Shown here one piece after another: positions 2,561-41,222 of a stretch of DNA of 64,000 bases. Position 1 is the stretch's first letter. Each line of letters opens with the position of its first letter. The DNA lies in assembly GCA_947498625.1 (NCBI GenBank), contig CANMKR010000004.1:1-64000 (forward strand). The letters are read 5' to 3'. The notes below the pieces were generated by a model, which did not search any database, was not told where the DNA came from, and saw only the letters and a program-made list of their open reading frames with translations. The DNA comes from an uncultured Kangiella sp. (GTDB taxonomy: Bacteria; Pseudomonadota; Gammaproteobacteria; Enterobacterales; Kangiellaceae). The translations under genes were made by a program, and so were the position numbers.

Positions 2561-4051
2561 GTGACCTTGATGATTAACAAAGATTTTAAACACCTAAGTA
2601 GAAAAGACACTCTATTTTCAAAAAAGCGTAAAAGTAAAAAAACTCTTTTAATGTCTGTTCTAGGCTCGATCGCCCTAGTTTCTGCTTATGCTTACTTTAA
2701 AGATGATAACCAAGGCAATACTTCTGAAGAACAAATCTTAGCTTTTGCTGCCAACATTGATGATTCCAATGGCGAACTATCTTTAGCTTCTTCAGATAAG
2801 AAGTCCGCAGAATTAGCGGCAACTGGATCTCAAAACTTGGAGCTTCAAGTCAGTTTGGCTAATCAATCAACCGCTGTAGTTGAAGCTATTCCTGCTGAGC
2901 CCGTTAAGCTTGAACCAATCACTCAGTGGCATTCTATCGAAGTCAAAAAAGGCGATACCTTAGCAAAAATTTTCCAGCAGCAAGGTTACTCAGCAACCGA
3001 TTTGCATTATATGATGAAATCGGGTGATGATATTAAAGTTCTTAAAAGTATCCGCCCAGGTCACACGATTGAATTTGCTCAAACTGAAGGGAAAGAAGGC
3101 TTTGAAAGTCTGCGTTACCCTTTTAGCTTAAGCGAAACTTTGGTCATCAATAAAGATGCTGCCAAAACATTCTCTTCTGAAATAGAACAAAAAGAAATCA
3201 CCTTTGAGCAACGTTTTGCCACCGCAACCATTAATAGCAGTTTTTACAATGCAGGTATCGAGGCTGGTTTGCCCGATGGTGTTATTATGGAGTTAGCGGG
3301 TGTTTTCGAATATGACATCGACTTCGCTTTAGAGATCCGCCAAGGCGACTCTTTTTCTGTGCTGTATCAAGAAAAGTTTATTGATGGTGAAAAAGTCGGT
3401 TACGGTGATATTTTATCTGCAGAGTTTATTAATCGTGGGGATCAATACGCTGCTGTACAATATACCGATCTAAAAGAGAGAACTGCTTATTACACACCAG
3501 ACGGTAAAGCATTACGCAAATCCTTCCTGCGAGCACCTTTAAAATTTAATTACGTAAGTTCGAATTTTAATCCTCGTAGATTTCATCCAATTCAAAAGCG
3601 CGTAAAACCTCATCGTGGAGTAGATTATAGAGCTGCCACAGGTACACCAGTAAGAGCTTCTGGCGATGGTCGAGTGGTTCGCTCAACTTATGACAAATAC
3701 AATGGCCATCATGTATTTGTACAACACGGTAATAACATTACAACTAAGTACTTACACTTTTCAAAACGACGAGTTAAAAAAGGCGAGCGAGTAAAACAAG
3801 GACAGGTTATCGGCTATGTAGGTAGCACAGGTATGTCAGAAGCTCCTCACTTACACTATGAGTTTCTAGTTAATGGTGTCCACCGTAACCCTCGAACAGT
3901 TAAGCTTCCGCATGCCGCACCGGTTGCAAAAAAAGAGCTTAACCGATTCAAGGAACAAACGAAAAGTTTAATTGCCCAATTGGAATATAAGCGTGTGGAG
4001 CATTTTGCCCGCTTGAATACTAATCCAGAAAATACTAAGTTAGAACAATAA
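2561..4051 (+). CDS. mepM: Murein DD-endopeptidase, M23 family (MepM-like)
   Basis: This is a probable periplasmic cell-wall hydrolase that cuts D,D crosslinks during growth. Its 496 residues hold a basic N-terminus with one membrane anchor (about 28-46), a LysM/OapA-like domain (about 123-195), a middle Csd3-like domain and a C-terminal LytM domain. Zinc ligands H351 and D355 (HRGVD), H399 and the HLHYEF motif (H430, H432) are all present, so it should be active. The frame opens at GTG 2561; ATG 2570 is the alternative and gives the same protein less three residues. The stop lies 20 bases before anmK, as in Pseudomonas. Confidence 0.9.
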   Translation: MTLMINKDFKHLSRKDTLFSKKRKSKKTLLMSVLGSIALVSAYAYFKDDNQGNTSEEQILAFAANIDDSNGELSLASSDKKSAELAATGSQNLELQVSLANQSTAVVEAIPAEPVKLEPITQWHSIEVKKGDTLAKIFQQQGYSATDLHYMMKSGDDIKVLKSIRPGHTIEFAQTEGKEGFESLRYPFSLSETLVINKDAAKTFSSEIEQKEITFEQRFATATINSSFYNAGIEAGLPDGVIMELAGVFEYDIDFALEIRQGDSFSVLYQEKFIDGEKVGYGDILSAEFINRGDQYAAVQYTDLKERTAYYTPDGKALRKSFLRAPLKFNYVSSNFNPRRFHPIQKRVKPHRGVDYRAATGTPVRASGDGRVVRSTYDKYNGHHVFVQHGNNITTKYLHFSKRRVKKGERVKQGQVIGYVGSTGMSEAPHLHYEFLVNGVHRNPRTVKLPHAAPVAKKELNRFKEQTKSLIAQLEYKRVEHFARLNTNPENTKLEQ

Positions 4052-4071
4052 TTTCTTTATAACTATTCCCG

Positions 4072-5169
4072 ATGCCCTATTTCATAGGTCTTATGTCTGG
4101 CACCAGTGTTGATGGTGTCGACGCCGTTTTGTGCGATATCCAGGATAACTCTATAAAGCTAATCGAATCTTTATGTTTCCCGATTGCAGAGCCATTGCAA
4201 AACAAAATTCACGCCATTGCTAACAGCGAATACCAGCAAGATCCCATTGAAATGATGGGGCACTTGGACGTAGAAATTGGCGACTTGCTAGCACAAGCCG
4301 TAGCTGCTTTGTTAGACAAAGCTTCAATAGCGCCTTCAGAAATAACTGCCATCGGCTCACATGGACAAACCATTCGTCATATCCCAAACCATGCTCAAGC
4401 TTTTACCTTACAAATTGGCGATCCCAATATTATTGCAGCCCAAACTGGGATCGATGTGGTTGCTGATTTCAGACGCCGAGATATGGCTTTTGGCGGTCAA
4501 GGCGCACCTTTAGTTCCAGCCTTTCATCAGTCAGTGTTTAAATCCGCTGCAAGCAATCGTGTGATAGTTAATCTTGGCGGTATTGCTAATATTACACTTT
4601 TAGCTAATAACATAGACGTCATAGGCTACGATACAGGCCCCGCGAATACTTTAATGGACCAATGGATAAAGCTGCATAAAAATCAGGCTTTTGATCCTAG
4701 TGGTGATTGGGCTAAAAGCGGTCAACTTGATGGTCACTTGTTAGAAGCAATGCTTGCGGATCCTTATTTTTCTCAAGCCGCCCCTAAAAGTACCGGCCGC
4801 GAATACTTTAATTTAGATTGGCTAAATCAATTCGATCTTCACTCTACTAAGGCTGTAGATATTCAACGGACCTTGTTAGAGCTTACCGCGCAAACTTTAT
4901 CTGATTCAATTGATAATCATATAGACTCTGGCGAAATTTATTTATGCGGTGGCGGCGCCCATAATGAATTCTTAGTTGAACGTATTAAGACTTTAATTCC
5001 ATCATTCACAGTTCAATCCACCTACCAGCTTGGAGTTGATCCCGATTGGGTTGAGGCTATGGCCTTTGCTTGGCTTGCTGAGCGAACCATTAATCGTAAA
5101 GCGGGCAATCTTGCTACCGTCACGGGCGCATCCCAGAATACTGTACTAGGCGCCATATACCCGACATAA
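4072..5169 (+). CDS. anmK: Anhydro-N-acetylmuramic acid kinase
   Basis: The enzyme phosphorylates and opens 1,6-anhydro-MurNAc to MurNAc-6-phosphate in peptidoglycan recycling, in the cytosol. The family's N-terminal nucleotide-binding signature GLMSGTSVDGVD (6-17) is intact. Also seen are the substrate-side block VADFRRRDMAFGGQGAP (130-146), NLGGIANIT (167-175) and DTGPAN (187-192). The length of 365 aa is normal. It follows mepM by 20 bases and is probably co-transcribed, linking a wall hydrolase with recycling of its products. In Pseudomonas the next gene is erpA; here a regulator takes that place. Confidence 0.95.
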   Translation: MPYFIGLMSGTSVDGVDAVLCDIQDNSIKLIESLCFPIAEPLQNKIHAIANSEYQQDPIEMMGHLDVEIGDLLAQAVAALLDKASIAPSEITAIGSHGQTIRHIPNHAQAFTLQIGDPNIIAAQTGIDVVADFRRRDMAFGGQGAPLVPAFHQSVFKSAASNRVIVNLGGIANITLLANNIDVIGYDTGPANTLMDQWIKLHKNQAFDPSGDWAKSGQLDGHLLEAMLADPYFSQAAPKSTGREYFNLDWLNQFDLHSTKAVDIQRTLLELTAQTLSDSIDNHIDSGEIYLCGGGAHNEFLVERIKTLIPSFTVQSTYQLGVDPDWVEAMAFAWLAERTINRKAGNLATVTGASQNTVLGAIYPT

Positions 5170-37214: not shown

Positions 37215-37231
37215 TGCACCGTTCTGGTGCA
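37215..37231. promoter_or_regulatory. NtrC-type binding site upstream of glnA
   Basis: TGCACCgttctGGTGCA is a perfect 6-bp dyad with a 5-nt centre. It matches the enterobacterial NtrC site (TGCACC-N5-GGTGCA). Its centre lies about 73 bases before the predicted glnA transcription start. An identical dyad lies before ntrB (39476-39492). Confidence 0.85.
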
Positions 37232-37255
37232 GAAGCTTCTTCTTCACCCTTGAAA

Positions 37256-37296
37256 TTAACTACTGTTAACTTCCATTTATCCGTATAATTGCCTCC
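37256..37296 (+). promoter_or_regulatory. glnA promoter, sigma-70 type
   Basis: A perfect TATAAT (37284-37289) lies 39 bases before the glnA ATG. The 17-nt-spaced -35 (TACTGT) is poor, which would fit an activator-dependent sigma-70 promoter. A dyad TTAACtactGTTAA (37256-37269) covers the -35 area. No GG-N10-GC sigma-54 element was found between the NtrC site and the gene. Confidence 0.6.
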
Positions 37297-37328
37297 AATA
37301 TTTGTTAGGACCTCATTTGGAGAAATTT

Positions 37329-38841: not shown

Positions 38842-39453
38842 ATGGAGTTTCCTGTGTCATTTAAAAATATTCTAATCTACTTCAGTTCAGTCATACTACT
38901 GGCGACTATGAGCGCTAAATCTTCGGCTGAAGAAAAAACACTGTATAAAAAAATCGACAAAAACGGTCGTGTAATTTTTACCGATAAGCCCCTTCCTGGT
39001 GCTAAAAAGGTGGTAGTCGACACCAGTAAAAATGTGATGGCTATTCCAAAGGTTAAAACCAATAAAAACGAAGAAGGAAAGTTTGCTGTCGAATTTGGCA
39101 AAAGAAATAAGGACGACAAAGACGATAAGAAAAAGCCCTTTCAATATCAGCTTCTATCGATTGAAAAGCCAAACAATGATGAAGCCATTCGCGCTAATGA
39201 TGGCAACCTCTATATCATTGTTGCGATCACTCCAATGCTGCAAAGAGAGCATAGTATTCGATTATTGATGGATGGCGCAGCGGCCAGCCCCGATCAAAAA
39301 GTACCTTACTTCTCATTAACTGGCGTCGATCGCGGCACCCATCAATTAACGGCTCAAGTTATCGATGATGCCACTGGCGAGATTCTGCAATCGAGTGAAT
39401 CAATAGAATTTCATTTATTGAGAGCTTCAAGATTGCAAAATAACAGACGCTAG
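38842..39453 (+). CDS. Exported DUF4124-domain protein
   Basis: This 203-aa protein has a signal peptide (about 1-29). It is followed by the DUF4124 pattern LYKKIDKNGRVIFTDKPLPGAKKV and, after a lysine-rich linker, a beta-sandwich-like domain (about 95-195). DUF4124 proteins are periplasmic with unknown role. The gene is often found between glnA and ntrB in gammaproteobacteria, as here, but no functional tie to nitrogen control is established. Its terminator doubles as an NtrC site. Confidence 0.82.
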   Translation: MEFPVSFKNILIYFSSVILLATMSAKSSAEEKTLYKKIDKNGRVIFTDKPLPGAKKVVVDTSKNVMAIPKVKTNKNEEGKFAVEFGKRNKDDKDDKKKPFQYQLLSIEKPNNDEAIRANDGNLYIIVAITPMLQREHSIRLLMDGAAASPDQKVPYFSLTGVDRGTHQLTAQVIDDATGEILQSSESIEFHLLRASRLQNNRR

Positions 39454-39472: not shown

Positions 39473-39500
39473 AAATGCACCAGTATGGTGCATTTTTTGT
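39473..39500 (+). terminator. Terminator overlapping a perfect NtrC site
   Basis: ATGCACCA pairs with TGGTGCAT around GTA (39475-39493) and is followed by T: a terminator 20 bases after the DUF4124 gene. The stem contains TGCACCagtatGGTGCA (39476-39492), the same dyad as upstream of glnA and a full match to the NtrC consensus. A possible ntrB -10 (TAAAAT, 39511-39516) lies just downstream, so bound regulator would overlap the -35 area. Confidence 0.8.
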
Positions 39501-39544
39501 TTTTATAGCATAAAATAGTTAAAACGATAGCTAAGTCATTTAAT

Positions 39545-40597
39545 ATGAACTCTGAAGCTCCTCTTCTTTCGCAAATCACTACAGCTATTTTGATTCTCGA
39601 TCTCAATGGTCGCTTTTATTATTTAAATAGCAGTGCTGAAAGAGCTATAGGGATCACCGCTCGAAATTTGATTGGCAAACGCTTTAATTATTTTATCGAA
39701 GCTGAAAGTCTGCCAGTTAGAGAGTGGTTATCGCAATTAAGCAATCTAGAAACTAAAATTTATGACAAGCGTTTATTGCAATTTAAAAATCAGCAGTCAG
39801 TTGATGCCGAGTTAGTATTACAAAAAATTCAGCTGGCTAACGACTATTATTTGTTGATCGAATGGCAAAATAGTTCTTTAGTCAAAAGGCATAAGCAAGA
39901 AGAAGAAATTCTTCGGCAGCAACAAATCCAGCAGCAACTTTTAAATAATCTCGCACATGAAATAAAAACACCTCTAACGGGCATCGCAGGCGCTGCACAG
40001 CTTATCAATCCTGAGCCTAAAGATAATCTTGAAATTAGTAACATCATCAGCAAAGAAGTAAAGCGATTGACTCAACTAGTCAACAGAATGTTGCTGGGGC
40101 AACAAGTTGCCAGTCGTTTGAAGGTCAATATTCATGAAATCATTGAAGATGTTATTAGATTCTTAAACTTAAACTTGCCGCCAAACATCACCATTGTCAG
40201 AGATTACGATCCTAGTTTACCTGAACTGGAATTAGCGCCAGAACAGGTTTATCAAGTTCTACTCAATCTAGCTCAGAATTCCATTGATGCTTTAGTTGAA
40301 ACTAGCAATCCTACACTAACTTTCAAAACTCGTATTAATAAAGAGCATCCTTTACCACCCGAGGTCAATCTAGCCGTTTGCATTAGTGTTATTGATAATG
40401 GTTGCGGTATTCCTGAAGCGCTCAAGCCCAGCATTTTCTTCCCAATGATTAGCGGTAAGAACAGTTCTGGACTAGGACTTGGCATAGCCCAAGGTTTATT
40501 GCAGCAACATCAAGGAACCATTGAAGTTGACTCACAAAACGGACTTACCCAATTTCATTGCTACTTACCTTTGAACAGCGAGCCTAAAGATGGATAA
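39545..40597 (+). CDS. glnL: Nitrogen sensor histidine kinase/phosphatase NtrB
   Basis: NtrB senses nitrogen status through PII and controls phosphorylation of NtrC. The 350-aa soluble protein has an N-terminal PAS domain (about 5-110), a DHp domain with H138 in NLAHEIKTPLTG, and a HATPase domain with LNLAQNSIDAL, DNGCGIP and GLGLGIAQ. No membrane helices, as usual. All catalytic blocks are intact. It overlaps the response regulator gene by 8 bases, so the two are translationally coupled. Confidence 0.95.
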   Translation: MNSEAPLLSQITTAILILDLNGRFYYLNSSAERAIGITARNLIGKRFNYFIEAESLPVREWLSQLSNLETKIYDKRLLQFKNQQSVDAELVLQKIQLANDYYLLIEWQNSSLVKRHKQEEEILRQQQIQQQLLNNLAHEIKTPLTGIAGAAQLINPEPKDNLEISNIISKEVKRLTQLVNRMLLGQQVASRLKVNIHEIIEDVIRFLNLNLPPNITIVRDYDPSLPELELAPEQVYQVLLNLAQNSIDALVETSNPTLTFKTRINKEHPLPPEVNLAVCISVIDNGCGIPEALKPSIFFPMISGKNSSGLGLGIAQGLLQQHQGTIEVDSQNGLTQFHCYLPLNSEPKDG

Positions 40598-41222
40598 GCC
40601 GTTAATTCTTTTAGTTGATGATGACAGCTCAATTCGTTGGGTTTTAAGCAAGGCTCTTAATAATGCAGGCTTTAAGGTTCTTGCCGCTGATAATGGACAG
40701 GACGCGCTCAAGCTCATCGAACAGCAATTACCAAAATTGATCATTACCGATGTACAGATGCCAGGAATGAGCGGATTGGAATTAATGGAAACGGTAAAGC
40801 TTCGCCACCCTAATTTGCCGGTGGTGATTATTACCGCCAATACCGATACTCAAATGGCGGTGGAATCGCACAAAATAGGTGCTTTTGATTTCTTACCAAA
40901 ACCATTCGATATTATTCAAGCCGTTTCCATATGTCAAAAAGCGATCGCTAAGGATTCAATTGAAGAGTTACCGCCATGGCAGGAGCAAATTCAAAGAACC
41001 ATGCTGGCCGAATATCATCAAGGAAATCAAACTATTTTTACGGAGTTACAAAAGGACTTTGAACAATTTATGGTCGAGCAAGCATTAACCATTTGTCAGG
41101 GCCATAAACAAAAAGCAGCAAAACTATTAGGTTGGGGTCGCAATACCTTGACACGTAAACTACAATCTTGGCAACTAGATGCCCATTCAAGCGGCAATAA
41201 AACTAAAGAAGATAACGACTAA
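40590..41222 (+). CDS. NtrC-like response regulator lacking the AAA+ domain
   Basis: This 210-aa protein is NtrC at both ends but not in the middle. The receiver (1-120) has the acid pocket D10-D12, phospho-acceptor D54 ([11 protein letters not shown]), T82 and K104 (KPFD), at the same positions as in E. coli NtrC. The C-terminus (about 125-196) has the NtrC dimer and Fis-type HTH region with [22 protein letters not shown], nearly identical to E. coli NtrC. The roughly 240-residue AAA+ domain, with Walker boxes and the GAFTGA sigma-54 loop, is cleanly missing. It cannot open sigma-54 promoters and is likely a sigma-70 regulator or repressor. The frame is continuous. Confidence 0.92.

Follow-up and report, generated by a model that had tools for sequence, protein, structure and literature searches.

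Truncated NtrC without an AAA+ domain and a candidate sigma-70 promoter at glnA in Kangiella

We analyzed a window of 64,000 nucleotides, the first part of a contig from an uncultured Kangiella sp. with a 2.32-Mb genome. The window contains an operon in which glnA is followed by a gene for a putative exported protein, by glnL and by a short ntrC, with an NtrC-type dyad ahead of both glnA and glnL (Table 1). An ORF of similar size lies between glnA and glnL in most congeners, and a short ntrC is found downstream of glnL in every Kangiella operon examined. For glnA, the start given is the conserved ATG, whereas the ORF caller begins at a TTG at position 37302. The two perfect dyads of the operon are the only ones in the genome, where roughly 0.14 would be expected for 12 fixed bases.

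Table 1. Genes and regulatory elements of the glnA operon in the window
Feature	Position	Strand	Remarks
NtrC dyad (predicted site), TGCACC-GTTCT-GGTGCA	37215..37231	+	exact match; centre ~-73 from expected glnA start
glnA -35 position, TACTGT	37261..37266	+	poor vs TTGACA; -35 likewise poor, at 16-18 bp spacing, in 20/20 leaders
glnA sigma-70 -10 element, TATAAT	37284..37289	+	exact; kept in 20/20 leaders
glnA, type I glutamine synthetase, 469 aa	37329..38738	+	NF007006, 966 bits (cut-off 845)
Putative exported protein, 203 aa, between glnA and glnL	38842..39453	+	no family match
Second perfect NtrC dyad, before glnL	39476..39492	+	centre ~-39, over -35 position
glnL promoter, -10-like TAAAAT	39511..39516	+	35 bp from dyad start
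glnL (ntrB), sensor kinase NR(II): PAS, HisKA, HATPase	39545..40597	+	NF008293, 239.2 bits (cut-off 240)
ntrC (glnG), truncated, 210 aa, receiver + Fis-type HTH	40590..41222	+	AAA+ domain missing

The dyad in the glnA leader, TGCACCGTTCTGGTGCA, is of the NtrC type and contains no mismatches. The hexamer TACTGT stands 17 bp 5' of the exact TATAAT, and the best agreement with TTGACA at spacings of 16-19 bp is 2/6. When the expected transcription start is set 7 bases past the -10 element, the centre of the dyad falls 73 bp upstream. No GG-N10-GC element was found in the 320 bp upstream of glnA, and the top sigma-54 match in the leader (8/12) is the same as in shuffled sequences (mean 7.8). A preliminary description of this DNA had reported a perfect dyad, an exact TATAAT with a weak -35, the lack of a sigma-54 promoter and a class I activator position about 73 bases before the start, and each of these features was reproduced here. 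In many species, both with and without rpoN, the glnA -35 (37261-37270 in the window) coincides with a TAGTTTTAA-like stretch.

The preliminary description had also called the regulator truncated. The window NtrC matches the Pfam families Response_reg and HTH_8 and has no match to Sigma54_activat. Alignment with E. coli NtrC revealed that the AAA+ domain is cleanly gone, and the GAFTGA loop with it. The acidic residues at Asp10-12, the phospho-acceptor Asp54, Thr82 and Lys104 are retained, and the recognition helix matches that of E. coli. The best solved match for the DNA-binding part is NtrC 1ntc (E-value 2.5e-10), whose fold is a constitutive dimer. An AlphaFold model consists of a receiver and a helical bundle, and adds little. 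Scores against the NtrC models were 181-186 bits, which is under the cut-offs for full-length NtrC. RegA, PrrA and ActR are response regulators that combine a receiver with a Fis-type HTH and have no AAA+ domain. They share this architecture with the window NtrC but belong to a different family, as the ActR_PrrA model NF033791 reached only 66.5 bits (cut-off 250). The nearest named relative of the window genome is Kangiella sp. HZ709 (95% in NtrC).

The truncation is common to the whole genus, as a short NtrC occurs in 19/19 Kangiella genomes with glnA. In the other genera of this family the protein is full-length (frames of 465-506 aa at the best-matching NtrC), with GAFTGA or the near variant GSFTGA in the 11 that were read. 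One further candidate for a truncated NtrC, at locus L136, was discarded because the locus ends inside a complete AAA+ domain with GAFTGA.

We compared 20 glnA leaders, from the 19 Kangiella genomes with glnA and from a sister lineage, G020. The distance from dyad to TATAAT is 68-70 bp in 19/20 leaders, whereas shuffled leaders had TATAAT at this distance in at most 2/20 genomes. The exception, G015, has a distance of 58 bp, about one helical turn shorter. The leaders thus have a single site 5' of the -35 that keeps a constant phase. Conversely, the distance from the -10 element to the ATG varies from 42 to 67, and dyad-to-TATAAT spacers of equal length share a mean identity of only 41%. Spacer length is thus conserved and sequence is not. 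In the sister lineage the distance is 69 bp (placement support 94/92), and no ntrC was found in its assembly, which is 73% complete. In the other genera, 17/18 glnA leaders, read by script, contain a sigma-54 element matching at 10-12/12, which is usually preceded, ~90-130 bp further up, by one or two NtrC sites. Sigma-54 scores in the Kangiella leaders are at the level of shuffles, the sole exception being a 10/12 match well upstream in G004.

The second dyad, which the preliminary description did not include, lies 33-35 bp from the -10 in 18 congeneric loci and overlaps the -35. In the window strain it is followed by a T-run, so that 39476-39505 could also serve as an intrinsic terminator. 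A conserved terminator can be rejected as the sole reason for this dyad, since several congeners without the T-run keep it.

A search with the relaxed pattern YGCACC-N5-GGTGCR yielded 45 copies in 19 genomes, compared with 3 for a reversed-pattern control. Of these copies, 36/45 are at glnA or glnL, 3/45 at amtB-glnK, in genomes having a second P-II gene there, and 6/45 elsewhere. Three of the last six were read and were unconvincing, and dyad-like sites within unrelated ORFs (L023, L029, L006 and L035) look like chance occurrences. Few NtrC-type dyads in Kangiella therefore lie outside glnA, glnL and, in genomes that have it, amtB-glnK. At amtB we saw a weak -10 ~58-59 bp from the dyad; it was read by eye and is only suggestive. 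The genome of the window carries a third P-II-like gene (G000:C2:343972-344250), weaker than glnB and glnK. One genome, G029 (L017; contigs C2, C6, C34, C49, C71 and others), contains 45 near-perfect NtrC dyads, far above any relative, mostly grouped in twos or threes ~31-41 bp apart on many contigs.

We consider it likely from this arrangement that phosphorylated truncated NtrC is a minimal response regulator that activates the sigma-70 polymerase at glnA in class I style. By homology, we infer that NtrB, the glnL product, phosphorylates Asp54 of the receiver under nitrogen limitation. The short NtrC would then bind the glnA dyad as a dimer through its Fis-type domain and recruit polymerase, most likely by way of the alpha C-terminal domain, to a promoter whose -10 is perfect and whose -35 is poor. 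The geometry is as observed in the leaders, while binding, the alpha contact and a positive direction of control are presumed. Activation of glnA would thus proceed without ATP hydrolysis, looping or sigma-54. At glnL, the position of the dyad over the -35 suggests that NtrC regulates its own operon, either as a repressor or as a class II activator. Some observations count against the proposed mechanism. NtrC phosphorylation normally works through oligomerization of the AAA+ domain, so the signal would have to be passed on without the domain that this route normally needs, and the weak amtB -10 elements count against the sigma-70 reading.

The perfect -10 at glnA is a further point against, as it makes it likely that part of the transcription there is independent of NtrC. 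The promoter could even be essentially constitutive, with NtrC at -73 only fine-tuning it or mainly repressing its own operon at glnL, where the overlap of dyad and -35 would suit a repressor; the restriction of the dyads to two or three places also fits this. We regard this as improbable, though of some weight, because the -35 is poor in every leader, the -73 site overlaps nothing that repression would need, and the dyad stays at its exact spacing although the leaders vary in length and the spacers in sequence. Activation of glnA by the truncated NtrC explains these leaders better.

We next considered whether sigma-54 could still be involved. In the genome of the window rpoN is intact, RpoN box included. 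The loss of sigma-54 can therefore be rejected as the cause of the switch in this strain. Conversely, rpoN is absent from seven Kangiella genomes, two of which are single contigs rated 100% complete, and these seven form one clade (support 100/100). A PrsR-type (PEP-CTERM) enhancer-binding protein, TIGR02915 in the genome of the window, has lost GAFTGA at unchanged length in 7/7 of the rpoN-less genomes (L239-L245), while both congeners with rpoN that were read retain the motif. This confirms the loss of sigma-54 in the clade. The short NtrC is nevertheless retained in these genomes, as are the dyad and, 68-69 bp from it, TATAAT. Sigma-54 is thus excluded as the driver of glnA in this clade. 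Considering that the window has the same arrangement, sigma-54 most likely does not serve its glnA either, despite the intact rpoN. The intact gene and two GAFTGA-type activators would allow a sigma-54 promoter of unusual sequence or position, with another enhancer-binding protein giving the ATPase in trans. This is very unlikely, since the Kangiella leaders have no sigma-54 element above chance, against matches of 10-12/12 in other genera, and seven genomes have the same leader without rpoN. Truncation is often a first step in gene loss, and the short NtrC might be degenerating while another regulator binds the dyad. This is hardly credible. Asp54, Thr82 and Lys104 are invariant across 21 NtrC sequences, and the receiver catalytic residues and the recognition helix show little or no variation among 19 genomes, although these depart from the window NtrC at up to 46% of residues. 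In addition, the same dyad occurs at E. coli glnA and glnL, and the short gene keeps its place after glnL. Genus-wide conservation, rpoN-less clade included, thus supports the earlier suggestion that the nitrogen switch now works through sigma-70, as far as can be judged from sequence.

Scanning 369 gammaproteobacterial genomes revealed short NtrC proteins in a second family, f178, where 11 genomes of one genus encode an NtrC of ~208-217 aa (for example L257 of G422, 3936-4589, and L258 of G326, 3930-4574; relatives, L260-L280). Ten relatives have a long NtrC, with GAFTGA in eight, GSFTGA in one and the loop deleted in one (G435), and rpoN is present in 25/26 genomes. The glnA leaders combine a dyad with a sigma-70 promoter (TTGGCA, 16 bp, TACAAT), with dyad distances of 83-85, 73-74 or 69-71 bp. 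A leader of this kind is also found in most members with full-length NtrC. This suggests that the promoter type changed before the AAA+ domain was lost, a loss that, judging from the genomes compared, is independent of that in Kangiella. The f178 dyads lie on approximately the opposite helical face from the Kangiella dyads. A single helical phase for both lineages is therefore not supported, and dyad phase is not universal, which also counts against the mechanism proposed for Kangiella.

The operon resembles the enterobacterial glnALG operon in its gene order glnA-glnL-ntrC, dyad consensus, recognition helix and dyads before glnA and glnL. E. coli NtrC drives a sigma-54 promoter at glnA. Unlike the Kangiella protein it keeps the AAA+ domain with GAFTGA, and unlike the Kangiella gene its target has a -24/-12 element. 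According to the account in PMC10274813, Rhodobacter capsulatus NtrC works on the housekeeping polymerase (Bowman and Kranz 1998), as we propose here, but it still has an AAA+ domain, from which the GAFTGA loop is deleted, and it needs ATP binding, whereas the whole domain is missing in Kangiella. Caulobacter NtrC, which is GAFTGA-less, is a reported regulator of sigma-70 promoters and is required for glnBA expression (PMC10274813). It too differs in retaining the AAA+ domain, the Walker motifs of which are required for ammonium use (PMC10274813). The class I activators CRP, at -61.5, and NarL, at -77.5/-67.5 of ogt (PMC2859248, PMC7419079), likewise act from 5' of the -35, at distances in phase with the helix. 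These two papers do not list NtrC as an activator of this class, and the alpha contact in Kangiella is a presumed one. Our literature search, which reached few subscription papers, returned no report of Kangiella NtrC or of an AAA+-less NtrC. NtrC acting on sigma-70 was thus known from Rhodobacter and Caulobacter, in the former as far as it is described in the source consulted, with an AAA+ domain; the proteins described here differ in having no AAA+ domain at all.

The control of glnA by NtrC and sigma-54 is a textbook case of bacterial enhancer-type transcription. Taken together, we somewhat favour the view that Gammaproteobacteria have seen two or more conversions of NtrC, one in Kangiella and one in part of f178, each turning a sigma-54 AAA+ enhancer-binding protein into a minimal receiver-HTH sigma-70 activator of glnA. 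Ordinary recruitment appears to have taken over with the sensor, regulator lineage, DNA site and target gene unchanged. On this view the switch preceded rpoN loss in Kangiella and apparently preceded AAA+ loss in f178, and even a central metabolic switch could give up its dependence on sigma-54 step by step. Living intermediates exist with rpoN kept, with rpoN lost, with the AAA+ domain kept at a sigma-70 promoter, with GAFTGA lost and with the AAA+ domain lost. The evolution of sigma-54 dependence and the need for the AAA+ step are therefore directly testable.
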